Virus record (IMG/VR): IMGVR_UViG_3300028802_000029
Span: 1-44,821 of that record
Direction: 5' to 3' (one strand)
Length of the DNA stretch: 44,821 nucleotides
From: a virus
Shown here one piece after another: positions 10,804-25,138 of the stretch (positions are counted from its first letter, which is position 1; each line of letters starts with the position of its first letter). Under the pieces are notes generated by a model that worked only from the letters and a program-made list of their open reading frames with translations, had not been told where the DNA came from and searched no databases. Made by a program: the position numbers and the translations under genes.

Positions 10804-11924
10804 TACTTCTTTTGCCGTTTCTGCCACTCCTCAAAGTCCGAGTAGCCGACTGTGTTGGTGCCCCCAGGCGCGGTGGCGGCCGCTGCCGCTGCCGGCGCCG
10901 CGTTCGTCGCGGGGCTGGTGGGTGTGCCTTGCGCACGTTGCTGGAGTGAGCGCAACCGTGTGGCTGCCTCACCTTTCTTGCGGAGCAAATCATTAAACTG
11001 TTCCTGGAGGGTCCACTGCTCACCTGCGCCCCAGCCAAAAACACCTGTTGGAATACGCTGGCCTTTGTCGTTGAGTTTGGGCACCAGGCCGGCCGCGCCT
11101 TTCTCCGTCATCGCGGCTTGAGTCTGCATGATTTGCCGATCCAGCTCGGCGGATTCGATGCGCGCCATGTCCAGCTCAGATTTACCCAGCGGACCATAGC
11201 CCAAGTCGCCACTGCGATTGATGAAATGCACTTTGCCCGCTTCATCGGTCCCGATGAATATATCAGGGATACCGGACTGCTCCACCGTGGGTTTGTTGCC
11301 CGTGGTTTTCACCTGCACCGGCACGCCGCTGTTCTCGGTCTCAAACACAAATTTGTGTGTGTTCACTCCCGGCAGGTCCACCACAGTGCCAGGCGCGTTG
11401 TAACGCTTCGCGGCCTTAGCCATCTCGGGGATCATGCTGGCAGTATCCACACCGGCGCTCCCAGCCATGCCGTAGATCTCCTCCGGTGTAATCGGCTGCC
11501 TGGGCGCCGGCGCGGTGGCCCCTGGCAATGGCGGCATGGGGGCGGTGCGGCCGGCCATCATCATGTTGAATTTGCTCTGTGCGGCGTCCTGCCGTTTCTT
11601 CTCCTGCAAATTATACTTCACCGCATTGAGCTGCTCGGCGGTGAGCTCGCCGGCCTGTTTAGCCCGCCTCAATTCATCCGCCATGAGGATGCCTTTGACC
11701 TGGCCGATGAGTTTATCAGTGCTCTGGTGATTGAGCGCCTCGCGCTGTAGGTCAGTGAGCTGGCCGCTATCCTTGAGTGCATCCGCGATGCCCAGGTAAT
11801 TCTTCCGCTCTTTATGTGCCTTGCTCAGGGTCTCGGTCATCTGTTGGATGCCCTGCGCCATCGCTTGGGCACCTTGCAGAATGTACTGGCCGCTCACGTC
11901 TTGGACTCCTGGGGCGTATGGCAT
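10803..11924 (-). CDS. Putative internal virion (ejection) protein
   Basis: A 373-residue protein. The N-terminal 140 residues are Gln-, Ala- and Lys-rich and helical (QYILQGAQAMAQGIQQM); a Pro-rich hinge (MPPLPGATAPAPRQP) follows; the middle has strands, and the C-terminal third is again coiled-coil-like, ending in an Ala/Thr tail. No catalytic motif is seen. It sits between tail genes and the giant polyvalent gene, with its stop overlapping that gene's ATG, the position taken by internal core proteins such as gp15 in T7-like phages. That role is an inference from position and composition only. Confidence 0.75.
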   Translation of the reverse strand: MPYAPGVQDVSGQYILQGAQAMAQGIQQMTETLSKAHKERKNYLGIADALKDSGQLTDLQREALNHQSTDKLIGQVKGILMADELRRAKQAGELTAEQLNAVKYNLQEKKRQDAAQSKFNMMMAGRTAPMPPLPGATAPAPRQPITPEEIYGMAGSAGVDTASMIPEMAKAAKRYNAPGTVVDLPGVNTHKFVFETENSGVPVQVKTTGNKPTVEQSGIPDIFIGTDEAGKVHFINRSGDLGYGPLGKSELDMARIESAELDRQIMQTQAAMTEKGAAGLVPKLNDKGQRIPTGVFGWGAGEQWTLQEQFNDLLRKKGEAATRLRSLQQRAQGTPTSPATNAAPAAAAAATAPGGTNTVGYSDFEEWQKRQKK

Positions 11925-11935
11925 AGGTCAAAGGG

Positions 11936-12184
11936 TTAATCGCGGTGCGGGAAGGCTTCACCCACCGCCGCCACGTCTGTTTCCAATACTGCACCACTCA
12001 CCAAGTCAAGCTGGCGCCTGGCCAAGCCCACGGTGGAGTGCACCAGGCCAAGGCGCGCGGCGGCCACGCGCGGTGTCTCCAGGTGTTTGAGCCCGTAATC
12101 GTACAGGAGCCGCGAGGCCAGGCTCAGCGTGGTGGCTATCTCCAAGAGATCACTGGTTTGCTCAGGTGTCAGGTCTGCTTTCAT
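11936..12184 (-). CDS. Hypothetical small helical protein
   Basis: 82 residues from the ATG at 12184, which overlaps the TGA of the preceding gene as ATGA; a GTG two codons upstream (12190) is a less likely start. The sequence is largely alpha-helical and Leu/Ala-rich (LLEIATTLSLASRLLYDYG) with no cysteine or membrane span. It lies between the CWVARE-type protein and the putative internal virion protein, so a minor virion component is plausible. No family is recognised. Confidence 0.65.
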   Translation of the reverse strand: MKADLTPEQTSDLLEIATTLSLASRLLYDYGLKHLETPRVAAARLGLVHSTVGLARRQLDLVSGAVLETDVAAVGEAFPHRD

Positions 12185-13101
12185 TTGCACAAAGTCATTT
12201 GGAACCGCTCGATGCGCCGCCAGATCCGGTTAATCATCCACCAACGCACCGCAGGCTTTAGGCCGGGATGTTTGTGGAGCCAAGCGGCCGCCCGCTCGCC
12301 ATAACGCAGGTAAAGAAAGCGGAACCACATGGGCGCATCCTCCATGAGCCACCGCTCGAACATGCGCCAGAGCGTGCTCTCGGTCCCGAACACTTCACGC
12401 GCCACCCAGCAGGCCGCTGCGGCGCCACCAGCGCCCACCAACGCCGCGTCAAACGCCATCCCACTGGCGAGCATGGCCGCGTTGTAATTTCGCGTGTTCA
12501 GTTTATCCGCCCAAGCCGCGTTGTAATTGGTGTTGTAAACATCCGAGGCGTAAGGGTCGAACACGTTGAACGCAGGCCGTTGCGGTGCCTGCTTGCGGAT
12601 CTCTTCCAAGGCAAACTGGTCGCCCGTCTGGTCGAAGCCATAGACGGATTCTGCGAACGCGCGCCGGCGCGCTTTGAGTTCTTCACCGGCGCTGCCCAGT
12701 GTCATCACTTCACTGGTGAGGTCACTGGGTCCATAACCGAAACCGCGCGCGGCCTGGCCAGAGCGTGTGTACTGCTCCAACTCCCGGCGCATACTCGGCG
12801 TGAGGCCAGAGCCCGCGTGCAGGTCCTCCATGGCCTGGGTGTTGAGCTCACCATAGAGTGCCGCGCTTTCTGGTGATTTCGCGCGGCTCACGGCTTCCGC
12901 CATGCGCGGGCCGTAATCCTCCAGCAGACCGGCCTGGGCACCCACGTACCCTTTACCGGCCTGCTCCTCCAAAGCGAGTTGACGCGGGAAAAGTTGTTCA
13001 TACGCGCCGAGGGTTTGGCTGCCTTCACCGAGCACGGAACGCGCGGGCGGCGCGGCTGGCTCTTTCTTCTTCAGACCGTAATTTGCAACAAGTATTCCCA
13101 T
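12181..13101 (-). CDS. Virion-associated protein with C-terminal Cys-Trp box
   Basis: 306 residues starting at MGILVANYG. The frame stays open to 13158, but the extra codons there are encoded by a hairpin repeat, so ATG 13101 is preferred. The N-terminal two thirds are helical and Gln/Glu-rich. After a Gly/Ala-rich hydrophobic segment (GAGGAAAA) comes a compact C-terminal region beginning CWVAREVFG and continuing with many Trp and Arg residues (WFRFLYLRYGERAAAWL). Similar CxxA..VFG...WFR..Y boxes end many phage virion proteins and resemble CFI-box-type C-terminal domains. Position suggests an internal virion or tail-associated protein; function is unknown. Confidence 0.7.
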   Translation of the reverse strand: MGILVANYGLKKKEPAAPPARSVLGEGSQTLGAYEQLFPRQLALEEQAGKGYVGAQAGLLEDYGPRMAEAVSRAKSPESAALYGELNTQAMEDLHAGSGLTPSMRRELEQYTRSGQAARGFGYGPSDLTSEVMTLGSAGEELKARRRAFAESVYGFDQTGDQFALEEIRKQAPQRPAFNVFDPYASDVYNTNYNAAWADKLNTRNYNAAMLASGMAFDAALVGAGGAAAACWVAREVFGTESTLWRMFERWLMEDAPMWFRFLYLRYGERAAAWLHKHPGLKPAVRWWMINRIWRRIERFQMTLCK

Positions 13102-13113
13102 GGTCTCTTTCCG

Positions 13114-13172
13114 AAGGTAAGAGGTAAGAGGTGGTGAGGTTCTCACCTCATACCTCATACCTGTTACCTCTC
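13114..13172. repeat. Heptad hairpin repeat H1
   Basis: Left arm on the + strand repeats AGGTAAG-type 7-bp units; the right arm repeats ACCTCAT-type units, so the two arms pair with a mismatch recurring about every seventh base. It fills the junction between the GNAT-like gene (ends 13174) and the start at 13101. Confidence 0.85.
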
Positions 13173-13173
13173 T

Positions 13174-13545
13174 TCACAGTGGTTTTATGTGCATGCCCAC
13201 TTCCGAAAGTTTCTTGTATCCGAACCGGCTTATGACACCGCAGAATGGGCTCGTGTTGGGTAGGAGTAACACGAGTTGATCCCAGCCGATGCGCCCCCGC
13301 GCGATGTTCTCCACCTGGTTAAAGATGAGCACACTTTCACGCGGGCCGATGAGCTTGGTGTGAAACCAGCCCTGGAAATACGGCAGAGAATTCAGGCCGA
13401 TGTAGCCGGCGATCTCCCCGCCTTTCTCGATCACAAAGTTTGGGGCCAGTGCCACGTGGTTATCCGCCGCAGCCGCTTTCATGATCGCTTCCAGGTCGCT
13501 CTCGCGCACCGGGCGCAACAAAGGAAGATTGCCAGTGAGATCCAT
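13174..13545 (-). CDS. GNAT-fold protein resembling T7 gp13
   Basis: 123 residues from ATG 13545; a TTG two codons upstream (13551) is possible. The start LRPVRESDLEAIMK, then IEKGGEIAGYIGL and a C-terminal block NTSPFCGVISRFGYKKL follow the layout of GNAT acetyltransferase folds. The NTS...GY/GA ending is like that of T7-type gp13, a small virion-morphogenesis protein with a degenerate GNAT fold. The upstream gene's TGA lies three bases from this ATG. Located in the tail/internal virion block, it may aid assembly of the ejection machinery. An active acetyltransferase is less likely because no clear acetyl-CoA loop is seen. Confidence 0.65.
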   Translation of the reverse strand: MDLTGNLPLLRPVRESDLEAIMKAAAADNHVALAPNFVIEKGGEIAGYIGLNSLPYFQGWFHTKLIGPRESVLIFNQVENIARGRIGWDQLVLLLPNTSPFCGVISRFGYKKLSEVGMHIKPL

Positions 13546-13547
13546 TT

Positions 13548-14147
13548 TCAAAATTCGATTCGCACCAGCCCATCCGCGCCCGCGATGCCTTGGATGCCCG
13601 TGCCAAACCCACCGGCGCCGCCGCCGCCCGAGCCGGTGGGCGTGCCTGGGCCAGAGCTGCCTTCTCCACCCTCGGCCACGCTGCTATCGCCACCATCACC
13701 AGCCGGACCCGTCAGACCACTTTGCCCAGTGGTACCGTCCCACGTCCTATCTCCCACACCCGTGCCGCCCACTCCCCCAGGGCCGTTTATGTTGCCATGG
13801 CCACCCGGCTGGCCAGCGCGGCCTATGACCACGCTTGTGTCGAATGTGCTATTCGTGCCCGCCGTGGCGGCCGCGCCACCTGCGCCCACCACGATTGTAT
13901 AAGTTTTGCCTGGCACCACTTGCAGCACGCTCATGGCCGTGCCGCCGCCACCGCCGCCGCCGCCGCTATTCGCGCCAAACCCTTCACCGCCACCGCCACC
14001 GCCACCGATGCACGTCACGCGCGCCTCGAAGATGCCAGTGGGACATTGCCAGGTAAATGTACCTGCCACAGCGCGTTCCCAGCGCAGGTTAAACCGGCTG
14101 GCTGGGTGCGGCCCGTTCGGGTAATAGAGTGTGCCGGGGTTGTTCAT
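13548..14147 (-). CDS. Glycine-rich fibre/adhesin-type protein
   Basis: 199 residues. After about 45 residues (WERAVAGTFTWQCPTG, a typical lead-in of glycine-rich fibre domains) come two Gly runs, a short beta segment (SVLQVVPGKTYTIVVGAGG) and a long stretch of GG-x repeats, ending in ADGLVRIEF. This is the pattern of glycine-rich C-terminal adhesin domains, in which polyglycine-II-like helices carry host-recognition loops. Its ATG overlaps the previous TGA (TGATG). Role in receptor binding is inferred from family resemblance. Confidence 0.75.
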   Translation of the reverse strand: MNNPGTLYYPNGPHPASRFNLRWERAVAGTFTWQCPTGIFEARVTCIGGGGGGGEGFGANSGGGGGGGGTAMSVLQVVPGKTYTIVVGAGGAAATAGTNSTFDTSVVIGRAGQPGGHGNINGPGGVGGTGVGDRTWDGTTGQSGLTGPAGDGGDSSVAEGGEGSSGPGTPTGSGGGGAGGFGTGIQGIAGADGLVRIEF

Positions 14148-14563
14148 CAGTAGTCAGCCGCGTGCGCGATGAAGTTCATTTTGTCCGGTGCGCCCGCGTA
14201 GGTGTGTATCGTGGCGCGCAAACTGTAGCCAGCGGGCAAAATCAGCCCGTTTGGAAAATTCACTGCGGACGTGAACCCTTTCACACTCGCGGTGGGCGTG
14301 GTGCTTGGCACCTCCACCTCCACAAGCAGGCGCACGCTGGCTCCGTCGTAGATCCAGAGGCGCGCCACGTTTGCGCTGGGCGCCCCACCACCCACCAGGG
14401 CGGCGCTGATAATATCCACTCGATCAACCCGCGTGCCGTTGGCGCCTGCGGTCAGCACCAGATCGCCGCCTGCCACGGCAAAGGTGTCCCGGGCAGTTTG
14501 CGCTGCGGCTGTTTGGTTCAGCCCAATTTTGGGCGTGGATGCAAATGTGGGTGTGGTAGCCAT
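14147..14563 (-). CDS. Putative tail-fibre-associated structural protein
   Basis: 138 residues beginning MATTPTFASTPKIGL. The sequence is beta-rich with small residues (GANGTRVDRVDII, VARLWIYDG, GLILPAGYSLRATIH) and has no membrane or catalytic motif. Proteins of this size and start are often found next to fibre genes in phages and prophages. It lies between the short fibre-like gene and the glycine-rich protein and is coupled to the latter by a one-base stop/start overlap. Likely a virion surface component. Confidence 0.7.
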   Translation of the reverse strand: MATTPTFASTPKIGLNQTAAAQTARDTFAVAGGDLVLTAGANGTRVDRVDIISAALVGGGAPSANVARLWIYDGASVRLLVEVEVPSTTPTASVKGFTSAVNFPNGLILPAGYSLRATIHTYAGAPDKMNFIAHAADY

Positions 14564-14569
14564 AAGATT

Positions 14570-14971
14570 TTAGACGTAGTTAAAGTACAGAAACAAATTA
14601 TTGCCCGCTGCGCCCGTGATGGAAGGCGTAGCCCATTGCCCATCACCCCTGAGGAAATCCGCCACATTCGCCTTGAGCGGCGTGGGCACCGCCCCACCCA
14701 CTCCATCATTGCTGGTGCTCGCCCCAGTCATCAACCCCAGGTCAATCCCGCGCACCTTGATGGTCCCACTCGGTTCCCACGCGCCGGCTGTCTGGTTCCA
14801 CACGAGGGCCTGGCCAGTCACCGTGGCGGCCGTGGCGCTCACATCGTCCAGGTCAGCCAGGCCGCCCGTGAGCGAGACAGTGGGGCTCGCCGCCGCGCGC
14901 AATTCATCCAGGCCGATGGGGACACCTGGCGGAAAGTCGTACCCCGGTGTGATGGTGATTACAAAGGCCAT
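14570..14971 (-). CDS. Short tail-fibre-like protein
   Basis: 133 residues. It holds the segment ANVADFLRGDGQWATP, matching the LRGDGxW motif that recurs in phage tail fibres and collar fibres, with a preceding TAATVTGQALVWNQTAGAW of the same type. Upstream of its ATG lies heptad hairpin H2 and no Shine-Dalgarno sequence. Probably a fibre subunit or module; it is much shorter than usual full-length fibres. Confidence 0.75.
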   Translation of the reverse strand: MAFVITITPGYDFPPGVPIGLDELRAAASPTVSLTGGLADLDDVSATAATVTGQALVWNQTAGAWEPSGTIKVRGIDLGLMTGASTSNDGVGGAVPTPLKANVADFLRGDGQWATPSITGAAGNNLFLYFNYV

Positions 14972-14980
14972 GTGGTGGGG

Positions 14981-15041
14981 AAGGTAGGAGGTAGGAGGTA
15001 GGAGGTGAGAGATCTTACCTCATACCTCATACCTCTTACCT
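14981..15041. repeat. Heptad hairpin repeat H2
   Basis: Four AGGTAGG/AGGTGAG-type units, a short loop, then ACCTCAT/ACCTCTT units. It occupies nearly the whole gap between the nozzle-like gene and the short fibre gene, ending ten bases upstream of the latter's ATG. Confidence 0.85.
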
Positions 15042-15053
15042 GGTTAGCGGTTC

Positions 15054-17300
15054 TCATGCGTGTGCTCCAAATCGTTTACTGGCCACCACGGCTTCAGTGT
15101 TCACGCTGAACACCGTGAGCATACCCACACTGCCCGTGATCCGTAGCTGGCAGTATTTGCCACGGCCAGTGAGCCAGAGCTTCTCTTCGATCTCCTGGAA
15201 GGTGTCCGGTAGTATCTTTGTGTCCAAGTAAGTCGCGTCTGGATCTTCGCCCATCACCCAGGCGTAATCCTCGCGATACGGCCGCATGAAATCCCCGTTC
15301 ACATTCGAGGGGTCCCAATCCGGTTGATCGTGCGGCCGGTAATACTTGAGCCGGTTCTTAGTCCGGTTACTCACCAGGGTCACACTCTCGCGCACCCCTT
15401 CCGTGAGCAGCTCTATGGTGTAAGTGGGGTTGAGCCCCGCCATGGCCAGGAGCCCTCGCAACGCGCTCTTAGGCTCCAGGGTCTCGAAGAGGTAGCCCCG
15501 TGTGGTGAGGCTGGTCTCCACGTTCTCGTACACGATAGGGGCCAGGGCTTCCTCATAAATGTTCTCATCGAGCGCGCCTTCCTCGTACAGGTTCATGGTG
15601 CCATCCGCGCTGAAGAACACCAGGCGTTGCTTGCCTTTCACCGTGGTGAGAGACCAATCCCGCACCATGATTACCGCGCTTTCATCGTGCCCGCTCCATT
15701 TGCCGGCCTGAAAATCATAGACGAGCACCGCGTTGTTCACCCCCTGGAAAAGCGGTTGCAACGTAGCGGTGACCGGCTCGCCAGGTGTGCCCACCAGTTT
15801 CAACAGCACAAAGGTGGTGGTTGTGAAATCTCCGCCGCTCTCGCGAAACACTTCGCCCATGTCTTCACTGAGGAACCCGCCCGGTGTCCCCACAAAGGTG
15901 ACACTGGTGCCTGCGGCCGTGAAGATCTGCGGGCCATCCACCGCGAGCAATGTATCCACCCCGTTAATCAAGCTCGTCGAGGTGCCAGGATTCCACAGGT
16001 AGCGCGCCCCGGGCACATAGCCAGTGGGCGCCTGGGCTGGCCCAAACACATCTGTGTAATGGCCAGCACCGTCATAAGTGGCGTTTAAGCCCTGGCCGTT
16101 GGCCACCGCCACATCATTCGCGCCCATGGTCCAGCGGTAACGGTTACCCACGCGCACCGGATACACCTCATACACCCCATCCGCATCATACTCTGCGCCA
16201 CTGGGGATGATGTTAGGTTTGACCACCTCCGCATTGTCTATGGGCACAGCCATGTAAAGCCGGTTCTGCCAGTACTTGGCCACCGCGTTCTCGGCATAGC
16301 GCCAGTTGATCCGGTCAATGGTGTCCTGTATGTCCTGGCTCACCGGCACGTCCACACCTTGGATCTTGTTTTGTTCCGTGAGCGTGATGGAGCACACGCC
16401 GCGTTTATCCGCCAGGAACCACAGGTCCTTGCCCACCGCCACCACGCTGCGCGGCGCTTTGCACCCATACTCACTGGTGATCTCGTAGAGAAACGCCGCG
16501 GTGAGATCGCCGGTGAGGTTGCCCATGGCGTAGATGCTTTGCTCCTTAAACGCGATGAGCGTGGTCTCGTTAAACCGGCCCAGGGTCACCAGGGCATCAT
16601 TCGAGCCTTGGTTAATGCGGGCCACACTGCGCGTGGGTGAGTAACGCGTGTAATTCAGGTAATCACTCACCCCCACCAGATCCCGGTTGTACGGTATCCA
16701 CACCCGGTTCTGGAAGAATAAGCCGCGCTCCGCAGGTGGAATATCCTCGTTGCCGTCATCGGGATTCTCCGTGCCGGTGCCCGTGATCTCGTTGGGCAAC
16801 CTCACGATGGCTTTGAAACCTTCCTCGATGTTGTCCAGCACCAGCTCATCCAGGTCCTCCCCGCGAAACATGAGCAGCACATTGAAACACTGTGTGAAGG
16901 TCACCGTGCTGGTGATGGTCACCCCAAAGGGTAACGGCACACTGGTGGCCGGGAATTGTTGTTCACGCGCGAAGTACACGGCGCCATCCGCCGCCACCAC
17001 ATCCCATTCAAATCCATTCGGGTCATTGTATTTGCCCACACCGTAGATAATCGCGAAAGGTTGCAGCTTGCGCCGGTAATCTCCAGACACCACCTGGCGG
17101 TTCAACCAGTTCAATTTGCGGATGCCCTTGCGCGCTTCCGCCACGCCTTTAGTGAAACGCCGGTTGATGGCTTCGGCCACCACACCGGCCGGGAGTTGTT
17201 CGGGCGCCAGGCGATTGTTCACCCCGAGAAAGCCTATGTCACCCGCCTGCATCGGCGGTTCCAAGACTTGCCCCGGACCTGTTTGGACGTAGCGGCCCAT
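15054..17300 (-). CDS. Tail nozzle / tail tubular protein B-like
   Basis: 748 residues, close to the size of T7 gp12 (about 790). It is beta-rich throughout, with repeated blocks expected of a beta-propeller-like nozzle (for example GLFFQNRVWIPYNRD, ALVTLGRFNETTLIAFKEQ and DLWFLADKRGVCSI). The N-terminus MGRYVQTGPGQVLEPPMQ and VNNRLAPEQLPAG are typical of phage proteins mapping the set of attachment points. It follows portal and fibre genes, as expected for the distal tube of a short tail. No signal peptide or enzyme motif. An alternative is a P22 gp10-like stabilisation protein; both occupy the same place in the tail. Confidence 0.75.
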   Translation of the reverse strand: MGRYVQTGPGQVLEPPMQAGDIGFLGVNNRLAPEQLPAGVVAEAINRRFTKGVAEARKGIRKLNWLNRQVVSGDYRRKLQPFAIIYGVGKYNDPNGFEWDVVAADGAVYFAREQQFPATSVPLPFGVTITSTVTFTQCFNVLLMFRGEDLDELVLDNIEEGFKAIVRLPNEITGTGTENPDDGNEDIPPAERGLFFQNRVWIPYNRDLVGVSDYLNYTRYSPTRSVARINQGSNDALVTLGRFNETTLIAFKEQSIYAMGNLTGDLTAAFLYEITSEYGCKAPRSVVAVGKDLWFLADKRGVCSITLTEQNKIQGVDVPVSQDIQDTIDRINWRYAENAVAKYWQNRLYMAVPIDNAEVVKPNIIPSGAEYDADGVYEVYPVRVGNRYRWTMGANDVAVANGQGLNATYDGAGHYTDVFGPAQAPTGYVPGARYLWNPGTSTSLINGVDTLLAVDGPQIFTAAGTSVTFVGTPGGFLSEDMGEVFRESGGDFTTTTFVLLKLVGTPGEPVTATLQPLFQGVNNAVLVYDFQAGKWSGHDESAVIMVRDWSLTTVKGKQRLVFFSADGTMNLYEEGALDENIYEEALAPIVYENVETSLTTRGYLFETLEPKSALRGLLAMAGLNPTYTIELLTEGVRESVTLVSNRTKNRLKYYRPHDQPDWDPSNVNGDFMRPYREDYAWVMGEDPDATYLDTKILPDTFQEIEEKLWLTGRGKYCQLRITGSVGMLTVFSVNTEAVVASKRFGAHA

Positions 17301-17307
17301 GGCTCAG

Positions 17308-17363
17308 AAGGTAGGAGGTAAGAGGTAAGAGGTGAGGCAGCTTACCTCATACCTCATACCTCG
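17308..17363. repeat. Heptad hairpin repeat H3
   Basis: AGGTAGG and AGGTAAG units followed by TACCTCA units, between the 73-residue gene and the nozzle gene. It lies seven bases upstream of the nozzle ATG. Confidence 0.85.
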
Positions 17364-17377
17364 TATTTTTGGCTTGT

Positions 17378-17599
17378 TCATTTCGGCGGGCAATTTGAGC
17401 GGCGCATATACTTCACCCGTTCCCGGGCCAGCTCCAGGTTACGGAAGGCGTGGGCCACACCGCCGTGCCACACCACCACCGGGTCTTCCACCTGGCCGCC
17501 GTTAGCCGGTTCATTGTGTTCATTGGCCACAATCAAAAAATCGTGATAATGCGCTTTCAAAATCGCGTAGGCTTTATCTAGCGGCGTTTCATGGCTCAT
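17378..17599 (-). CDS. Hypothetical small protein
   Basis: 73 residues, soluble and mixed helix/strand (LDKAYAILKAHYHDFLIVANEH), with a C-terminal basic stretch RERVKYMRRSNCPPK. The start overlaps the stop of the lipoprotein gene (ATGA), so the two are translationally coupled. No family is recognised; proximity to a lipoprotein leaves a lysis-related role possible but unsupported. Confidence 0.65.
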   Translation of the reverse strand: MSHETPLDKAYAILKAHYHDFLIVANEHNEPANGGQVEDPVVVWHGGVAHAFRNLELARERVKYMRRSNCPPK

Positions 17600-18069
17600 G
17601 GGTCCTTGCCGAAATCCCGGCCCACCCGCGCTGTCTTGAACCGGCGCACCTCGCGGTTGAGCCGTTTCTCCATGCCCGTCTGTTCGGCCACACGCCGGAT
17701 CGTCGTTTTCACGTCTTCATTGTGCGGCGTAGCTTCCACCGCCGCGATGAGCGTAGGCACAATCGCAGCGCGATCCGATTTGATCTTAGCCACCCAACCC
17801 AGCACACCGATGGTCAAAGCCATGGCGGATTGGGCCAGCGTGCTCCACGGCGTGGGTATCGCCTCCGTTATATCGCGGAAGTGCGCGGCGGCATTTGTGA
17901 GCCCGGGATTGAGCGTGTAAGACACCTGCCCCAGCTCATTCGTATGCGCCACGTAGAGCGGGCGCTTGCCATTCGGTAGCGTCTCACAGCCAAGCAAGAG
18001 GAGCGCGCACGCCAGCAACAGCGCGGCGGCGATCCCCGCCCCGATTAAGAATTGGCAAAAGCGTTTCAT
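17596..18069 (-). CDS. Putative phage lipoprotein, lysis candidate
   Basis: 157 residues. The N-terminus is a signal sequence (MKRFCQFLIG, then a Leu/Ala core) ending in the lipobox-like LLGC at about residues 25-28, predicting lipidation. A second hydrophobic segment (LAQSAMALTIGVLGWVAKI) lies near residues 80-97, followed by a basic helical tail (KRLNREVRRFKTARVG). Lipidation plus a second span would fit a spanin-like or superinfection-exclusion protein. It overlaps both neighbours by four bases (ATGA) within the tail-gene block. No endolysin adjoins it, so the lysis role is a guess. Confidence 0.7.
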   Translation of the reverse strand: MKRFCQFLIGAGIAAALLLACALLLLGCETLPNGKRPLYVAHTNELGQVSYTLNPGLTNAAAHFRDITEAIPTPWSTLAQSAMALTIGVLGWVAKIKSDRAAIVPTLIAAVEATPHNEDVKTTIRRVAEQTGMEKRLNREVRRFKTARVGRDFGKDP

Positions 18070-18983
18070 ACCTGTCGGCTCAGCGCCGTCTGGAGAGTTT
18101 GCACCCGCGTGCGCAGGTTGGCCGCTTGCGTGGCGTCCAATCCCTTACCGATCCAGTAAAAGCAAATACTCTGCGAAGTCGGCGCCCAGGCTGAATTTGA
18201 AAGGTTGCCGTCATGCACCGCAAAGCTGAACCCGTTCACGGCCCCACCAGGGCTGGTGGACGTAGAGCCAATCTGCGAACCGTTCTTGTAGAGCTTCAGG
18301 GCATTTGACGCCGTGCGGCTCAGCAAATAAAACCCTACCCCTGAAGCATCCGCCACAGAGACACCCGCCGTGATGTCCCACATTTCAGCGTTCACAGTCG
18401 AGGCGTCGTGACTCAGGTAACAACCACTTGCCGCGTTCCCCGCTTGTTGCGTCCCCATTTGAACCGCCCCGGCTGCGGTGGCCGTCCGTGTATAAAGCCC
18501 GATGCTGAAGCTGTTAATGTTCAACAACGGATTCGGCGTCGAGTACACTGGTGGCAGCCACCAATTAAAACCCGTCAAAATGCGTTTGCCCGCGCCACCC
18601 ACAAGCCCAGTTGAGGTGTAATCCCCAGCCACAAACCCCGTCAACGTATCCGTGGCCACATCAGCCGCAGAAATCAACAACGGCGCCTCTAACGCGGCAA
18701 GCGCATCCCCGGCATACACGCCGATGCGCCAAGCCATGTCCCACAGCAAATCCGTCTTGAGCCCGATAATTAAATTCCCCACCGCAGTCTGCACACCCGT
18801 GCCCGTCACATTGCTGCCCCGTCCTTGCACGCGGGCCACCCACGCGCTCAACTCCGGTTCCGCGCTGAAACCACCACCGCCTCCACCCGCGCCCACGAGC
18901 GCGCTGAGCGAGGGATGATTCCAGCCGCCCGCCCTGTTAGGTGTGGACAATATCCGTGACTGCAATGGCGGTTGGTCGAGCAT
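18066..18983 (-). CDS. Receptor-binding / fibre-type protein
   Basis: 305 residues. A short glycine-rich hinge (GAGGGGGGFS) precedes AWVARVQGRGSNVTGTGV, after which the protein is beta-rich with segments typical of LamG/concanavalin-like jelly rolls (GFYLLSRTASNALKLYKNGSQ, GFSFAVHDGN) and ends in a helical ATQAANLRTRVQTLQTAL. Such proteins are found among phage tail and fibre genes. Sugar or receptor binding is inferred from the fold-like pattern. Its start overlaps the previous stop by one base. Confidence 0.7.
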   Translation of the reverse strand: MLDQPPLQSRILSTPNRAGGWNHPSLSALVGAGGGGGGFSAEPELSAWVARVQGRGSNVTGTGVQTAVGNLIIGLKTDLLWDMAWRIGVYAGDALAALEAPLLISAADVATDTLTGFVAGDYTSTGLVGGAGKRILTGFNWWLPPVYSTPNPLLNINSFSIGLYTRTATAAGAVQMGTQQAGNAASGCYLSHDASTVNAEMWDITAGVSVADASGVGFYLLSRTASNALKLYKNGSQIGSTSTSPGGAVNGFSFAVHDGNLSNSAWAPTSQSICFYWIGKGLDATQAANLRTRVQTLQTALSRQV

Positions 18984-19303
18984 CAGTACGCTTGCTCCAT
19001 CTCGATCACCACGGCGCGCGGCGCACCCGTGGCGGCTTTGATACTCACGATCCCTTTGTAACTCGCGTCGAAGAAACTGCCACCCGTCCCGTCATCCGCC
19101 GCCGTGCCCGCCTTGAGCGGCACGTCGAAGTCCGAGGTGGAAGCGGCCGCGCCCATCTTGACCAGGCACACTGCGTCATCACAGTTAATGACACCCCACC
19201 AGGCCCGGCGCGCATTTGCGGCCAGCACAGTGCCGTCTGCCGTTTTGATTCCGCTCGTCGCTGCCCGAGCGGCTTCCTGTTGAATTGAGACTGCGTTGCC
19301 CAT
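18983..19303 (-). CDS. Small virion-type protein between portal and fibre genes
   Basis: 106 residues, beginning MGNAVSIQQEAARAATSGIK, then beta-rich with VLAANARRAWWGVINCDDAVCLVKMG and a C-terminal ISIKA...PRAVVIEMEQAY, a pattern common in small phage head- or tail-decorating proteins. It lies directly after portal in the leftward unit, with hairpin H4 upstream of its ATG and no Shine-Dalgarno sequence. Exact role unknown. Confidence 0.65.
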   Translation of the reverse strand: MGNAVSIQQEAARAATSGIKTADGTVLAANARRAWWGVINCDDAVCLVKMGAAASTSDFDVPLKAGTAADDGTGGSFFDASYKGIVSIKAATGAPRAVVIEMEQAY

Positions 19304-19312
19304 AGGTTTTTC

Positions 19313-19377
19313 AAGGTAAGAGGTAGGAGGTTTAGAGGTAGGAGGTTCTCACCTCATACCTCATACCTCATACCTTC
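19313..19377. repeat. Heptad hairpin repeat H4
   Basis: AGGTAAG/AGGTAGG units interrupted by a TTTAG triplet-like insertion, then four ACCTCAT units. It sits between the portal stop and the 106-residue gene. Confidence 0.85.
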
Positions 19378-19389
19378 AGTTGTTCATGT

Positions 19390-21471
19390 TCATGCACCGA
19401 GCCGTCCAATAGTGGGGTTCACCATTTTCTGTTGGATCTGGAAATTCAGTTGTTTGAGCCGTTTATCCACCACCTCTTTGATTCGTTCGTTGCCGTTGTA
19501 CGCCTGTTGCGCGAGTGGATTGGTCTTGAGCAAACCCTGGAGCACGTCCATGCGCAGTTTGTAAGCCTGGCCATCGGGCTTCACGTTCTCCTCCTGGCCG
19601 GTCATCATGCGGGCAAACACGGTCTTTTCGTCCTCGATCTCGCGCAGGCTGGCCGCTTCCTGCGGTTGGAGCAGGCGCTCGCCCAGGTTCGGGTCCAGGT
19701 ATTCAAAGATCACCGTCATGAGTTCCGTGCGGTCCACCACGGCGTTCACGTCAGCCGCCAGTAGTTTGAGGAGTAAATCCAGTTTGGCCTGGAGCAGCTC
19801 CGGGTCCTGGTTCAGCACGTTCCAGGTCATGTGCAGGTCAAACTTGCCCTGGATCTCTGAGCGGTTGGCGTGCAGCGGTTGCGCCTTGGCAGAGCCCACC
19901 ACACGGAACCAGATGTCCTCTGGCCCGTACTGTTGCTCCAGTTGAAAGCACATTTGCGTCACTTCAGACCAGCCCTTGAGCCAGCGGGTGACCATGCGTT
20001 GTTTGCGTGCCCGTGTGTAATCCGGGTCGCGGTCCTTCACCGCGCGGCCGAAATACCAATCCGCCATGTGCCGCACACTCTCTTCCACCATGGCGTTGCC
20101 CGGGTCGTATTTGGGCATATCCGCAAACCGGAATTCATCGGCACGCAAGTAAGGCACGCGCACCGCAGGCCCCCAGCGCGATGGCGCGCGGCCGGCCGGG
20201 TGCAGCAGAGGCGGTATGGTGGCAATACTCTCGCGATCACTGCGGCTATCCCACACCGTCTTCACCTGGGTCTGCATCGTGTACCCCACCTCGCCGTAAC
20301 CGCGCGAGGAGTCCAGGCGGCGATTCACGCGCTCACGCGGGAACGCCACGAAGGGGTAACGGCCGTGCGTGTACTCGAGCAAGTCACGGCGCGCGGCGAA
20401 ATCCTCCACGCCATCCATGCTTTGCACGTGCATATTAAACACGGCGTAATAGATCCCCGGGGTGCGCTGTGGCCCGGTGCGTTTCTCGAAGCAATGCACG
20501 ATCTCGTAAAGCTCCGTGGTATCCAGCCCGGTCACAGTCTGCCGCTCACGCGAGTCCACCACTTTGGGCGTGCTATAGGTGAGGGCCTGGGCTTTGCCTT
20601 TGGCCACCGCCGCGATGCGGTCCACCCATTTGCCATCCCACTTGTAGCTCCGCTCCGCGTCCCTGAGCTGGGCCTCGGTCATGAACTCCCGGTAAAAGAG
20701 CATGCGCGCGTTTTGCAGATCCGTCACATCACGCGGGATGAAGAAATCTTCACCCGGGCAGAGCGCCAGCACGGTGGGCCTGTTCTCGCACGCGTAAGGT
20801 TGCAGGTACTCGGCGGTGCCGGTCTCGCGCAAGCTCACCACGGCCTTGCGCACTTCCGCCTTGGTCATGGTCAGGTCCTCGTCCTTATCCTGCGCGGCCT
20901 CATTGATCGTGTTGTGGACCAGCTCCACCGCGTCATCCTCCCGCGTGGGGTCCGCGATCACCTGGGCGATCTCAGGCAGGAGCTCCTCGATCTTCACGGT
21001 CTTCTCGGTGAGCTGCATTTCCTTGCGCCAGAAAACGCCCAGCACACCCAACCCGCGTTCCAGCGTGTAATTGGCCAGGAGCTCCGCCTCGCGTTCCAGC
21101 TCGGGCATCTGCGTGTAAAACATCCAACGCACGAAATTGGTCACCGTGTTGGCCTTGCCCATGTCCCCGCTCTCGGTGGGTGCGGCCATGAGGCGCGCGC
21201 TGTAAAGCGAGTTGAGCAGCGTATCCACATCCTCGTTTATGTAGCCGTCAATGAGCGGCACGCGCGCATCGCTCGCTTCATCCCAGGGGAACGGTTCTTT
21301 ACCCAGGCGCGCCTTGAGCTTGCGCCCGCTCCAATCTTGGCCCGCCCAAATGTTATACCGGCTTTTCCAGTTTATATCCTGGCGATCCGCCCACAGGTTC
21401 GGCCGCGTGAGACAATCAGAAAACTCCTTGGCGAGATCACCAATGGCTGTTGGTTTATCGGTCTTGCTCAT
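19390..21471 (-). CDS. Portal protein
   Basis: 693 residues, the size of podovirus portals. Seen features: an N-terminal WADRQDINWKSRYNIWAGQDW, PFPWDEASDARVPLIDGYI (a motif found in portals of this class), a long helical stem region, the GYGEVGYTMQTQVKTVWDSR segment, and a C-terminal Gln-rich helical domain. It would form the dodecameric DNA gate at one capsid vertex and bind terminase. ATG overlaps the adaptor gene's TGA (ATGA). It is unusual that portal lies downstream of capsid and neck genes rather than next to terminase. Confidence 0.85.
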   Translation of the reverse strand: MSKTDKPTAIGDLAKEFSDCLTRPNLWADRQDINWKSRYNIWAGQDWSGRKLKARLGKEPFPWDEASDARVPLIDGYINEDVDTLLNSLYSARLMAAPTESGDMGKANTVTNFVRWMFYTQMPELEREAELLANYTLERGLGVLGVFWRKEMQLTEKTVKIEELLPEIAQVIADPTREDDAVELVHNTINEAAQDKDEDLTMTKAEVRKAVVSLRETGTAEYLQPYACENRPTVLALCPGEDFFIPRDVTDLQNARMLFYREFMTEAQLRDAERSYKWDGKWVDRIAAVAKGKAQALTYSTPKVVDSRERQTVTGLDTTELYEIVHCFEKRTGPQRTPGIYYAVFNMHVQSMDGVEDFAARRDLLEYTHGRYPFVAFPRERVNRRLDSSRGYGEVGYTMQTQVKTVWDSRSDRESIATIPPLLHPAGRAPSRWGPAVRVPYLRADEFRFADMPKYDPGNAMVEESVRHMADWYFGRAVKDRDPDYTRARKQRMVTRWLKGWSEVTQMCFQLEQQYGPEDIWFRVVGSAKAQPLHANRSEIQGKFDLHMTWNVLNQDPELLQAKLDLLLKLLAADVNAVVDRTELMTVIFEYLDPNLGERLLQPQEAASLREIEDEKTVFARMMTGQEENVKPDGQAYKLRMDVLQGLLKTNPLAQQAYNGNERIKEVVDKRLKQLNFQIQQKMVNPTIGRLGA

Positions 21472-22544
21472 GTGCGCGCGGGAGTGGTGCCCCAGGAGTA
21501 AAGACTGCTGTCACGTTGCTTGACGCGCAGAGGGGGCTCTTGTCCTTTCTGCCGTTCCTGCTTGTCGAGCTCGTGCAGTTTCATGGTCATGGCCAGGGCC
21601 ATCTCGTCCTTAGCCCAGTCGTCCTTGCCGTCTTTGCTGAGCATATCCGCCGCGCTGGCGTGGATGAGCCATTCACCGAAGATGAAGGGGATCTCCACCT
21701 TGACCCATTTATCCGTGCTCGGCAGGTCACCCACATTAGTGGCTGTGATGCACTCGTAAAAATCCGCGGTGACGATGCCACTGGCGCTGGTCACTTGGTA
21801 GTAAACCTGGTCACCCACGGCGTAGGCCACCGTGGCGCTGAAGGCTGTGCCCTTGAGAAAGGGGAGGAACTTGCGCCACCTGGGCCAGCAGGTGGGCACA
21901 GGGTCAAACACGTGTATGCCCAGGTTACCCTCGCGCCAGGTGAGCGGCAGTGCGCCCTCGAAAATCTCCGGGTCCCGATCATACACCTCCAACACATCAC
22001 CCAGCTTGGTTTGGCCGGTCTGCTCGAAAGCTATGTATCGGTTAAACGGCGTGAGGATTCCCCAGCGCGCCGTGTTCGTAGGCACAAAACCCCCGGCACT
22101 CGCGGTGTGCGCCTGGTAATAACGGCCCGTGGCGGGGTAAAGCACCTTGGCGCCCACGGCGTAGCTGGCGGCGCTATCGTACTCCTGGCCGCTGTAGCTG
22201 GTGGCGCATTCAGCCCACCAGGCGGAATTCTCCACCAAGGGCGTGCCAGTGGCCGGCGCGTTGTTCGTGTTCGCCGCGCGCAAGCTCTGGTAATACTTCT
22301 TGGCTGGCAGGTAATAGACCTCAGCGCCGGCCGCGTAGGTGGTGGCCCCACTCCAGTCAGCGCGGAATTTGCGCTCCTCACTCAGCATCAGGTCCGGCCA
22401 GTTCCACGCTTCCCACATTTCTTTGAGGCGCGTGTTGACGTAGCCTTTAAACAGGCCCGCTTCCTGCACGGAAAGGTCCGTGAAGATCCGGCCGGTGGCT
22501 TCGGCGGCTTTCTGCAAAACATCGTAATAGGAGATGGATCTCAC
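21468..22544 (-). CDS. Head-to-tail adaptor with three carbohydrate-binding-like inserts
   Basis: 358 residues from GTG 22544. The ends look like a neck protein: an N-terminal helical block (YYDVLQKAAEATGR, VNTRLKEMWEAWNWPDLM) and a C-terminal helical block (FGEWLIHASAADML...EMALAMTMKLHEL). Between them lie three repeats (about residues 65-115, 120-165 and 235-290) of the form A-x-YxxGxxVYY...YYQ...N.P...W, resembling chitin-binding (CBM5/12-like) modules. These would decorate the neck and bind surface glycans; this is inference. The gene precedes and overlaps portal. Confidence 0.75.
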   Translation of the reverse strand: MRSISYYDVLQKAAEATGRIFTDLSVQEAGLFKGYVNTRLKEMWEAWNWPDLMLSEERKFRADWSGATTYAAGAEVYYLPAKKYYQSLRAANTNNAPATGTPLVENSAWWAECATSYSGQEYDSAASYAVGAKVLYPATGRYYQAHTASAGGFVPTNTARWGILTPFNRYIAFEQTGQTKLGDVLEVYDRDPEIFEGALPLTWREGNLGIHVFDPVPTCWPRWRKFLPFLKGTAFSATVAYAVGDQVYYQVTSASGIVTADFYECITATNVGDLPSTDKWVKVEIPFIFGEWLIHASAADMLSKDGKDDWAKDEMALAMTMKLHELDKQERQKGQEPPLRVKQRDSSLYSWGTTPART

Positions 22545-22552
22545 TGTTGGGC

Positions 22553-22614
22553 AAGGTAGGAGGTAACAGGTAGGAGGTTGGCAATCTTACCTCTCACCTC
22601 ATACCTCATATCTT
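22553..22614. repeat. Heptad hairpin repeat H5
   Basis: AGGTAGG/AGGTAAC units, loop, then ACCTCTC/ACCTCAT units. It fills the gap between the 113-residue gene and the adaptor's GTG start. Confidence 0.85.
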
Positions 22615-22617
22615 CGG

Positions 22618-22959
22618 TTAGGTTTTCCACGGCGCCACGATGGGGTTATCCGCCACAAATTTCTTCACGTTCTTTTTGTCATGCCAAAAGAAAGGGTCAG
22701 TTTGTTGCCAGCGTATGTAAGTGGCCATGTCCACCACCGCGCGGAGATCGAGCTCAGACCCAGGTTTGCGCACATAATTCTTATGCGGCAGCGCGGCGCC
22801 GGCCAGCCGTTCATCGGTGCGGCCGCGTTCGCGCTCCAGTTTCTTCATGAGCATACCGCCTTCACGCAGCTCCCGCTCGAAGCTCACGGGAATGTTCTTC
22901 CATTTCGGCACCAGTATGCGCGGTGCGTTACCCGCCAGCTTTTGCAGTATGTCACTCAT
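22618..22959 (-). CDS. Hypothetical protein upstream of neck gene
   Basis: 113 residues starting MSDILQKLAG. A frame extension upstream runs through a terminator hairpin and is not used. The middle is a charged helix (ELREGGMLMKKLERERGR) and the end is FFWHDKKNVKKFVADNP. A GGAG lies 13 bases before the ATG, within the terminator's distal arm, so the hairpin may also influence translation. Position between decoration proteins and adaptor suggests a head-completion or assembly role. No family is recognised. Confidence 0.7.
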   Translation of the reverse strand: MSDILQKLAGNAPRILVPKWKNIPVSFERELREGGMLMKKLERERGRTDERLAGAALPHKNYVRKPGSELDLRAVVDMATYIRWQQTDPFFWHDKKNVKKFVADNPIVAPWKT

Positions 22960-22964
22960 CGTTT

Positions 22965-23005
22965 CAAAAACTCCGCGCCGGGGGCGTTCAAGTCCCGGCG
23001 CGGAG
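22965..23005 (-). terminator. Rho-independent terminator after capsid/decoration genes
   Basis: On the minus strand CTCCGCGCCGGG pairs perfectly with CCCGGCGCGGAG (12 bp, 11-nt loop), followed at once by TTTTTG. It would end or thin transcripts carrying scaffold, capsid and decoration genes before the neck and portal genes. Confidence 0.85.
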
Positions 23006-23051
23006 CACTGACTCGCTCTCTCGCCTCTGCCTCTGCCTCCGCAGATTGTTA

Positions 23052-23101
23052 GGGGTGGCATCGCGCCACAGACCAAACCAGTGGTATGCGCGTGCCACTC
23101 C
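23052..23101. other. Imperfect hairpin in capsid/neck junction
   Basis: Arms around GGTGGCA (23054-23060) and TGCCACT (23093-23099) pair, with a second inner stem (CCAC with GTGG). It lies between the decoration gene and the strong terminator and could act as a processing or pause site. No T-run follows on either strand. Confidence 0.5.
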
Positions 23102-23111
23102 CTGGAAATTG

Positions 23112-23570
23112 TTAAACCTGTATCGCACGATCCGCCTTGCGTTTGATGGATACCCAAAGCCAAAACTCGCCCGCTGAAATCAGGTTCACAGCTTGTTCCA
23201 CGCCCAGGCCGGAATTCGGTGTGATGGTGAAAACCAGGTTCGCCGCCGCCGTGATTGGCAGCGCCGCCACTGAAGCGGCCGGCACGTAGTACTCACCACC
23301 TGCCGCGAGGAGATTTGACGCCCCTAAGATCGTCCCGCCTGTGGAAGGCCCAGCGGACCCATCCGCCTGGGTTAAACCCGCCGCGTTCGTGCGTACTTCC
23401 AGCAGTGTGCCAGTCCCCAGGACATCCCCCACCGCCAGCGAGGTCAGCACGAGATCCGCCGACACACCCGCCGCCGCCGTGGACGAGGTGAAATCCGTGT
23501 AAAGGATCTTGAAGAGGTCCGTGAACCCGAGCCCGCGCGCTTCCTCGTGTTTGAGCCGGTAATGTTTCAT
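23112..23570 (-). CDS. Probable capsid decoration protein, copy 2
   Basis: 152 residues and clearly paralogous to the gene at 23626-24069: both begin with an RLK.E start, then G.TDLF and DFT, share EVRTNA, LAAGGEYY and AGEFW.W..I.RKA.R..QV in the same order. The fold appears beta-rich with small residues. Placed just after the capsid gene, it is likely a surface protein of the shell. A hairpin (arms 23581-23588 and 23605-23612) lies in the spacer between the two copies. Function is inferred from place and duplication. Confidence 0.75.
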   Translation of the reverse strand: MKHYRLKHEEARGLGFTDLFKILYTDFTSSTAAAGVSADLVLTSLAVGDVLGTGTLLEVRTNAAGLTQADGSAGPSTGGTILGASNLLAAGGEYYVPAASVAALPITAAANLVFTITPNSGLGVEQAVNLISAGEFWLWVSIKRKADRAIQV

Positions 23571-23625
23571 GTAAAAGGTGTGACGCGCCCGCCATCGCGA
23601 ACGAGCGCGCCACGTTTGGTTGGGA

Positions 23626-24069
23626 CTAAACCTGAAGGTTGCGCTCAGCCTTCCGGCTGATCGTGGCCCAGATCCAGAATTCGCCAGCGGTCATTTCATC
23701 CACGTTATCCGCCGCGCCCGGGTCAGCGGTGAATAGCAGGTTGACCGCCGCAATCGCCGCATACGCGCCGATGCCTGAGCCACTCGCGTAATACTCACCA
23801 CCTGCGGCCAGCAGGTCCGAGGCTGCGAGCAGGGCGGCCACGCTGCCCGTGACGCCTACTGAGCCAGTCACAGCGGCCACCACATTTGCGTTGGTGCGCA
23901 CTTCGAGCAGCACGTTGTTGTTCACCACGTCGCCTATGGCCAGCGGGCAAAGCGTGATGCTCTGCGCCACGTCATCCGTCACGGTGGTGAAGTCCGCGTG
24001 GGTCACGATGAACAGGTCCGTCCACCCGATGCCACCGCGTTCCTCCAATTTGAGTCTATAAGCTCTCAT
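23626..24069 (-). CDS. Probable capsid decoration protein, copy 1
   Basis: 147 residues, paralogue of the gene at 23112-23570 (shared TDLF, EVRTNA, LAAGGEYY and C-terminal AGEFWIW). No membrane span or enzyme motif is seen. It is the first gene after the major capsid gene and its ATG follows hairpin H6 and a C/A-rich leader lacking a Shine-Dalgarno sequence. Two related but diverged decoration proteins could occupy different lattice positions or allow alternative surfaces. Confidence 0.75.
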   Translation of the reverse strand: MRAYRLKLEERGGIGWTDLFIVTHADFTTVTDDVAQSITLCPLAIGDVVNNNVLLEVRTNANVVAAVTGSVGVTGSVAALLAASDLLAAGGEYYASGSGIGAYAAIAAVNLLFTADPGAADNVDEMTAGEFWIWATISRKAERNLQV

Positions 24070-24077
24070 TATTTTTT

Positions 24078-24144
24078 GTTGGTTGGTGGTTGTGGGTTGC
24101 GGGTTGGCCGGCTAACAACCAGCCACCTGCCACCCACCACCCGC
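24078..24144. repeat. Heptad hairpin repeat H6 (variant family)
   Basis: The 7-bp period is the same as in H1-H5 but the unit differs: GGTTGTG/GGTTGCG units on the left and CCACCTG/CCACCCA-type units on the right. It lies between the major capsid stop and the first decoration gene. Confidence 0.75.
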
Positions 24145-24148
24145 AGAG

Positions 24149-25138
24149 TTAGGCCGTGTTCTTCCCGAGGCCGCGCGGGTTCTTCACACCGAGTGAAAAC
24201 ACCGTCTTGCAGTAGCCGCGAGGGCCGCCGCCGTAGTCAGGGAGATCCACCGAGTGCAATGCCTCAGCCATCTGAAGCTCCAGGAGCTCCATGTTGAGAA
24301 ACAGGGCGGCGTTCACGTCACCCACACCAGCCGCGTCGATCTTCAGGAATTGGCTGGGCATCAAATGCGCCATGCCAAAGCTGCTGTCGAAGATCCGCAC
24401 GCTGAGGCTGATCTGGTGCCGCACCGCGTCTTCCGTCACCTGGTAGCGGATATTTGTGGCGGATGAATTAACGCGCGTGAAGTTGTCCACCGTCTCGATG
24501 AACTCCACACCACCCACCACCTGGTAAGTTTTCTTCTCGCCATAGACCAGGTACATGGCCTGGAGCAGGCCGTTGAATTGCGCTTCGGTAATCGCGGCAC
24601 TGTAGGTGCCGATGTTGGCGGCCGGCGTGAGGAAGTCCGCAGGCACCGGCTGTGTGGCTTGCGCGGTGGCTTGTATCCACTTAAACAAACCGCGCGTGAC
24701 CCAGCCCGTGGAGCCTGAGCCCTGCACCATTTCCTGGTCGCCGCAGATGACGCTTTCCAGGTCGCGTTTGAGCTCGCGCACGCACTTGGCTTTAGCCTCA
24801 CCGTAGAGATCACTGGTGCCGGCCACGGCCACCATCATTTCCACGTCCGTGACGGCGAAGCTGTCTTCCAGGATGTGGATGTAATTGCCGAACCGGGAGC
24901 GTTTGCTCGCCTTGTTCGAGAATGAATTAACGTCGAGACCTTCAGGCACACCCGTAGTGCGTGGGGCACGGAGTGTGTCTGCGAGTACTTCCACCAGCGT
25001 GGCCTTAGGCGCGGGGCCTTTGGAGATCATGCTGGTGACCGGAGTACCTTCCGGTTCGAGAATCGTGAGAATATCTCTCAGATCCTCGCGGTTACCGCCC
25101 GTTGTGGACGGGCTGGCATACGAATTTGCACTTGGCAT
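24149..25138 (-). CDS. Major capsid protein (SU10/DUF5309-like)
   Basis: 329 residues. The start NREDLRDILTILEPEGTPVTSMISKG followed by KATLVEVLADTLRAPR is the characteristic N-terminal block of DUF5309/SU10-type major capsid proteins (HK97 fold). Also seen are a helical spine (KCVRELKRDLESVICGDQEM) and a C-terminal block MLPSQFLKIDAAG-like (HLMPSQFLKIDAAG). It forms the shell. It lies three bases after the scaffold gene; AAAGG eight bases before the ATG is one of the better ribosome-binding candidates in the head block, fitting high expression. Confidence 0.85.
   Translation of the reverse strand: MPSANSYASPSTTGGNREDLRDILTILEPEGTPVTSMISKGPAPKATLVEVLADTLRAPRTTGVPEGLDVNSFSNKASKRSRFGNYIHILEDSFAVTDVEMMVAVAGTSDLYGEAKAKCVRELKRDLESVICGDQEMVQGSGSTGWVTRGLFKWIQATAQATQPVPADFLTPAANIGTYSAAITEAQFNGLLQAMYLVYGEKKTYQVVGGVEFIETVDNFTRVNSSATNIRYQVTEDAVRHQISLSVRIFDSSFGMAHLMPSQFLKIDAAGVGDVNAALFLNMELLELQMAEALHSVDLPDYGGGPRGYCKTVFSLGVKNPRGLGKNTA

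Follow-up and report, generated by a model that had tools for sequence, protein, structure and literature searches.

Heptad-built DNA hairpins in the gene junctions and terminase linker of a phage, and their probable turnover at permissive sites

Rickettsia palindromic elements (RPE), known from Rickettsiales, are small palindromes that lie between genes and in frame within protein genes, and each of their families retains a family sequence. The P6b stem of cyanobacterial tRNA-Leu introns is built from two complementary kinds of degenerate heptanucleotide repeats. Heptameric repeats have been described as the cyanobacterial STRR sequences, as GGGANTN in Xanthomonas, for which an inverted heptamer pair is also mentioned, and as GGGGA(T/C)T in Nostoc (PMC4692102), as TAACTGA in Beggiatoaceae (PMC4679880), and as the heptanucleotide elements of Geobacter metallireducens, copies of which also occur within genes (PMC2700814). 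REP and REPIN sequences are short extragenic hairpins present in many copies (PMC3733652, PMC3116915). Here we analyzed seven hairpins, H1 to H7, in a 44.8-kb viral contig (IMG/VR record IMGVR_UViG_3300028802_000029, positions 1 to 44,821; hereafter the window), six in junctions of a minus-strand virion gene cluster and one in frame within the terminase gene. An initial annotation of this DNA had described six of them, had considered both RNA-level roles and small mobile palindromes, and had pointed to STRR-like heptads as the nearest relatives, a comparison with which we agree. The evidence below makes it probable that these are DNA-level, RPE-like hairpins of 7-nt units (heptads) that insert or arise at permissive sites, and not conserved regulators of virion genes.

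H1 to H5 are hairpins of about 60 nt composed of GAGGTNN heptads: H1 (13114-13171) between genes 12181-13101 and 13174-13551, H2 (14981-15041) between genes 14570-14971 and 15054-17300, H3 (17308-17363) between genes 15054-17300 and 17378-17599, H4 (19313-19377) between gene 18983-19303 and the portal gene, 19390-21471, and H5 (22553-22613) between genes 21468-22544 and 22618-22974. H6 (24078-24145), between gene 23626-24069 and the major head protein gene, 24149-25138, is made of two heptads, GGTTGNN in the left arm and CCACCNN in the right; the GGTTG unit had been recognized earlier, the separate heptad of the right arm had not. These six hairpins fill junctions of 72, 82, 77, 86, 73 and 79 nt, respectively, and end near the start codon of the following gene, as the initial annotation had claimed, whereas most other junctions of the cluster measure -4 to +12 nt. 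The cluster also has gaps of 55 and 137 nt that lack a heptad hairpin, and a few of its longer gaps may contain small uncalled genes. Folded on the transcribed (minus) strand, H1 to H6 gave energies of -26 to -37 kcal/mol with z scores of -4.3, -7.1, -5.6, -7.5, -5.3 and -3.2, and none of 200 shuffles folded as well, confirming all six hairpins at the places first reported.

When the whole window was scanned for inverted repeats without gaps, H1, H2, H3, H4 and H7 were returned and nothing else, and the same scan returned no match in three block-shuffled windows; H5 and H6 fall below its cut, as their pairing needs gaps or wobble pairs. On the plus strand, AGGTA[A/G]G makes up most of the left arms of H1 to H4 and ACCTCAT, the reverse complement of ATGAGGT, most of the right arms, and one fixed unit position is mispaired in most units, so the arms are not mirror copies, in agreement with the initial annotation. 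The outer end of the A/G-bearing arm reads AAGGTA[A/G] in all six GAGGT copies (H1 to H5 and H7). From this shared, defined end and their common unit family the six look like copies of a single element, one of them flipped.

The flipped copy, H7 (29366-29425), had escaped the initial annotation. It is built of the same GAGGTNN unit and occupies 20 in-frame codons of the gene for the terminase large subunit (28934-30673, minus strand; PHROG 2, E 5e-11), whose translation stays open through the hairpin. The constant orientation first reported holds for H1 to H5; with H7 reversed relative to its gene the count is five of six, which is not significant, and we therefore dropped orientation as evidence for an RNA function. 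The linker that carries H7 is 57 residues long in the window, 35-37 in five related phages (L131, L132, L135-L137) and 72 in the sister phage described below (L127), in which this linker contains a different, purine-rich hairpin; the remaining relatives have unrelated, longer linkers. This variation among relatives indicates that the H7 site is tolerant of length.

A terminase search of viral contigs identified the sister (L127, also G001), with a terminase 75% identical to that of the window and a largely shared order of virion genes. An exception is the portal gene, which lies downstream of the capsid gene in the window (19390-21471) and beside the terminase gene in the sister (L127:9566-11602), a module rearrangement. 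GAGGT heptads were absent from the sister and from eleven other phages with related terminases. Among the options of the initial annotation were selectively maintained elements for processing of RNA, pausing or insulation, and it had itself named absence of the hairpins from related genomes as the observation that would speak against its proposal; with the GAGGT hairpins absent from these twelve phages, that option is not supported. The sister's junctions at H1, H3 and H5 are closed (8, 6 and 3 nt; at H3 the 6 nt separate the common flanking genes, the small gene between them having no match), and those at H2 (38 nt) and H6 (36 nt) each hold about two AAGGCTG heptads. A run of 4.4 AAGGCTG heptads precedes the gene that follows H4, the upstream neighbor being different, so that the sites of H2, H4 and H6 carry another heptad. 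In the sister a further AAGGCTG array precedes the counterpart of gene 10803-11924, a position without such an array in the window, and another hairpin overlaps the gene start of the 17596-18069 counterpart.

Among viral contigs, 72 stretches contain AAGGCTG arrays. Where related phages of this set share a junction, the repeat units in it differ, and the AAGGCTG arrays at such junctions vary by whole units. A strand bias of AAGGCTG arrays in phages was set aside: inside open reading frames (ORFs) the TGA stop contained in AAGGCTG accounts for it, and at junctions it depends on crude ORF calls. A group of phages among these contigs, including L199, L208, L214, L216 and L240, has many arrays of TTCAGCC, TTCATTC, AACAATT and other units directly before start codons; arrays turn over between relatives in this phage group, which would be a good set for a study of gain and loss. 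In phage GenBank records there was no DNA match to 14900-17400; four distant portal relatives were found there by protein, their junctions lying outside the comparison, and a portal search of the viral contigs gave no confirmed relative. Of 289 Verrucomicrobiota genomes, 9 matched the terminase, with 30-41% identity, which is too remote for a host to be named, and GAGGTA heptads were present in two of the 289, neither of which had the two-unit GAGGT hairpin pattern.

As had been proposed, viral and bacterial genomes were searched for the complete hairpin. In a collection of 84,980 species genomes, 117 stretches matched a GAGGT-heptad hairpin with three units per side, the records concerned bearing the names Acidobacteria, Bacteroidota, Chloroflexi, Gemmatimonadetes, Planctomycetota, Pseudomonadota and others; two viral contigs matched as well. 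A looser two-unit pattern matched 1-66 times in each of eighteen of these genomes, and the reversed-pattern control did not match in any of the eighteen; as the loci were picked by the GAGGT pattern, the frequency of other heptads cannot be inferred from them. By a crude ORF call, 78 of the 117 hairpins lie outside ORFs, compared with 398 of 2340 random points (17%), and 39 lie inside. Fourteen of these 39 were translated and all stay open through the hairpin, giving, together with H7, the in-frame palindromes in protein-coding genes that are a trait of RPE, although some of the ORFs may be spurious; by eye, the carriers include proteins that resemble valyl-tRNA synthetase, TrpE, PriA and MutL. 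The in-frame copy, the three closed sites of the sister and the dispersal of the same kind of hairpin in cellular genomes support the suggestion of small mobile palindromes made at the outset. Across species of rumen Prevotella (L047, L050, L059, L062, L067, L109, L120, L122), the loops of the GAGGT hairpins have a similar core, which is not so for the phage copies.

Turnover at fixed sites was followed at one acidobacterial gene junction in the family of G017, for which twelve relatives were compared. Nine of the twelve have a heptad hairpin or heptad-like palindrome there, with clear heptads in G013, G512, G035, G498, G510, G577 and G572 and looser ones in G509 and G511, and the sequences differ except within the pairs G511 and G512, G035 and G510, and G013 and G577. 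No clear array is present in the 55 nt of G565, and the junctions of G579 and G027 (-4 and 2 nt) contain no insert; G497, a thirteenth relative with an unrelated stretch of 666 nt in its junction, was left uncounted. A linker of Prevotella PriA behaves similarly within a coding sequence: it holds an in-frame CGAGGTA hairpin in G032, a GTGTAGA hairpin in G446, single heptad arrays in G033, G422 and G350, and a GC-rich palindrome or insert in G426, G386, G440 and G023, and it is heptad-free in several others. A coding linker cannot fill the role proposed for the junction hairpins, so recurrence is more simply explained by tolerance of the site. In L263 and L264, this linker contains a further palindrome, CCCACCCCC...GGGGGTGGG.

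The repeats show a marked bias to period seven. In 200 kb of the acidobacterial genome G013 there are 40 lag-7 arrays; for the remaining periods between 4 and 13 the counts are 0-7, and for period 14, a multiple of seven, the count is 29. Of the 40, 35 lie outside ORFs, even though ORFs make up 88% of the sequence. The 7-nt unit thus shows the excess over other unit lengths that characterizes heptameric repeats. The window itself has nine lag-7 arrays, compared with seven at period 6 and 0-3 at the remaining periods tested, and the other samples yielded 23 (acidobacterial G017), three (Prevotella G442) and none (Verrucomicrobiota G168). The hairpins of G013 and G017 are made of many different heptads. 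They occupy tandem, convergent and divergent junctions in numbers of 11, 4 and 3 in G013, roughly as these junction types occur (88, 31 and 26), and of 6, 2 and 0 in G017. Mismatches in the arms are of the G.T type in 80 of 416 cases, near the 2/12 expected without preference, base composition being uncorrected. A test of arm register, comparing the real register with shifts of 7, was biased and too weak, and was set aside.

Three other explanations were weighed against these results. The hairpins could be functional RNA elements of a polycistronic virion mRNA, in which protein ratios are set by a stem close to the next start codon that either restricts re-initiation following the upstream stop or marks a processing site, with selection acting on shape alone and the sequence free to change. 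Six of the seven, read on the transcribed strand, do directly precede the start of a virion gene and form strong folds, the sister's shared junctions also carry repeats, and the acidobacterial junction keeps a palindrome in nine of twelve relatives. We nevertheless regard this explanation as unlikely, given that three of the sites are closed in the sister and its repeats at H2 and H6 are short arrays and not full hairpins, that two acidobacterial relatives lack any insert, and that copies occur within ORFs, H7 included, and at divergent junctions. Nor do the sequences carry marks of such a role: G.T pairs are not enriched among the arm mismatches, a terminator scan found no T-run terminator at H1 to H7, and Rfam covariance models at the gathering threshold gave no match in the window. 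A role of shape alone is possible at some junctions.

Plain slippage, by which heptad microsatellites would expand in place in non-coding gaps and gain an inverted arm by template switching without any movement, has in its favor that long repeats in many bacteria are most often heptamers, for which slippage has been proposed (PMC4679880, PMC4692102), that one genome holds many different heptads, and that unit numbers vary between related phages. It does not readily account for six copies in one phage with a common unit family, asymmetry and end, nor for full hairpins of about 60 bp standing opposite closed sites of 3-8 nt in the sister, and we consider it improbable. A known class, whether intrinsic terminators, REP/REPIN sequences moved by Y1 (RAYT) transposases, or miniature inverted-repeat transposable elements (MITEs) driven by a transposase, would be consistent with hairpins that are short, palindromic, dispersed and mostly outside ORFs. 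It is very hard to reconcile with the same terminator scan, in which the total of sites in the window was not above that of shuffles, and with the lack of an Rfam match. The transposase data are less clear: Y1_Tnp (PF01797) was not detected in the heptad-bearing drafts G020, G028 and G032, which may speak against REP/REPIN, and was found in 9 of 14 genomes, and neither Y1 transposase nor reverse transcriptase content tracked with heptads in these draft genomes. No target duplication was recognised.

We therefore favor RPE-like hairpins acting at the level of DNA. These elements are DNA hairpins of about 60 bp with arms of tandem 7-nt units, which would insert or originate where an extra hairpin does little harm, as between a stop codon and the next start region or in variable linkers in frame, and which would be replaced over time at given sites. 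Their spread, we infer, takes place in the DNA, and they persist through tolerance of the site. The strong bias to period seven points to a process with a 7-nt step; polymerase slippage, for example, might expand the units and fold-back copying might make the second arm. More tentatively, a dedicated and hitherto undescribed process advancing by 7 nt at a time might write hairpins of nearly any heptad sequence at permissive bacterial and phage sites, and homologous sites would then be rewritten repeatedly, each time with a new sequence and an unchanged architecture; we consider this less likely to be right than wrong. Several points weigh against the DNA-level reading itself. No transposition was seen, and no target duplication was readable, there being no available pair of filled and empty sites with near-identical flanks; the nearest sister is only 40-82% identical in protein, so that at any one site gain and loss are indistinguishable; the repeated use of particular junctions could also reflect selection for a hairpin there; the genome loci were chosen by the GAGGT pattern; and the ORF calls were crude.

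Two further features of the cluster were recorded. The heptad-free junction of 137 nt (22974-23112) ends in a perfect, G+C-rich hairpin of 12 bp followed by TTTTT on the transcribed strand, likely an ordinary terminator before gene 22618-22974. Genes 23112-23570 and 23626-24069 both match two adjacent stretches of the sister (L145:9388-10436) and, judged from these matches, look like a tandem duplicated pair retained in both phages.

Heptameric repeats are already known; their turnover at fixed sites is something we did not find described. The initial annotation had named no account of such hairpins for phages of this kind, and open-licence papers likewise yielded no description of matched heptad hairpins in phages or of heptad replacement at homologous sites, although an earlier account elsewhere is possible; a literature search by the heptad sequences found nothing related. 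Heptameric repeats and palindromic elements within genes, both described only loosely before, are brought together by these results as a single class that spans many bacterial phyla and their phages. In this class, sites keep a hairpin while its sequence is replaced, whereas compensatory drift is the usual outcome of selection on structure, and transposons tend to retain their sequence. The bias to period seven also makes it testable why bacterial repeats prefer seven bases, and, for annotation, peptides such as RSEVRGQRSEV in predicted proteins may derive from inserts of this kind.

Set beside the known systems, the hairpins described here agree with heptameric repeats in having tandem 7-nt units with degenerate positions, mostly intergenic and in several copies per genome, and differ from them in that most of the arrays studied are paired into hairpins, lie in phage virion junctions and in frame within genes, and give way to other heptads at homologous sites. 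The P6b stem is alike in being built of heptads, and differs in being confined to one intron position and undispersed. REP/REPIN sequences resemble them as short hairpins, mostly outside genes and present in many copies; in contrast to REP/REPIN, the arms here are made of heptads and no Y1 transposase is consistently present; no fixed GTAG/CGTC tag was seen, none having been sought. The likeness to RPE is that of small dispersed palindromes lying between genes and in frame in protein genes, but the conserved family sequence of RPE is lacking: H1 to H5 and H7 are alike, and the homologous sites of relatives hold other heptads. The hairpins are built of heptads, vary in sequence between species, and extend over many phyla and their phages.

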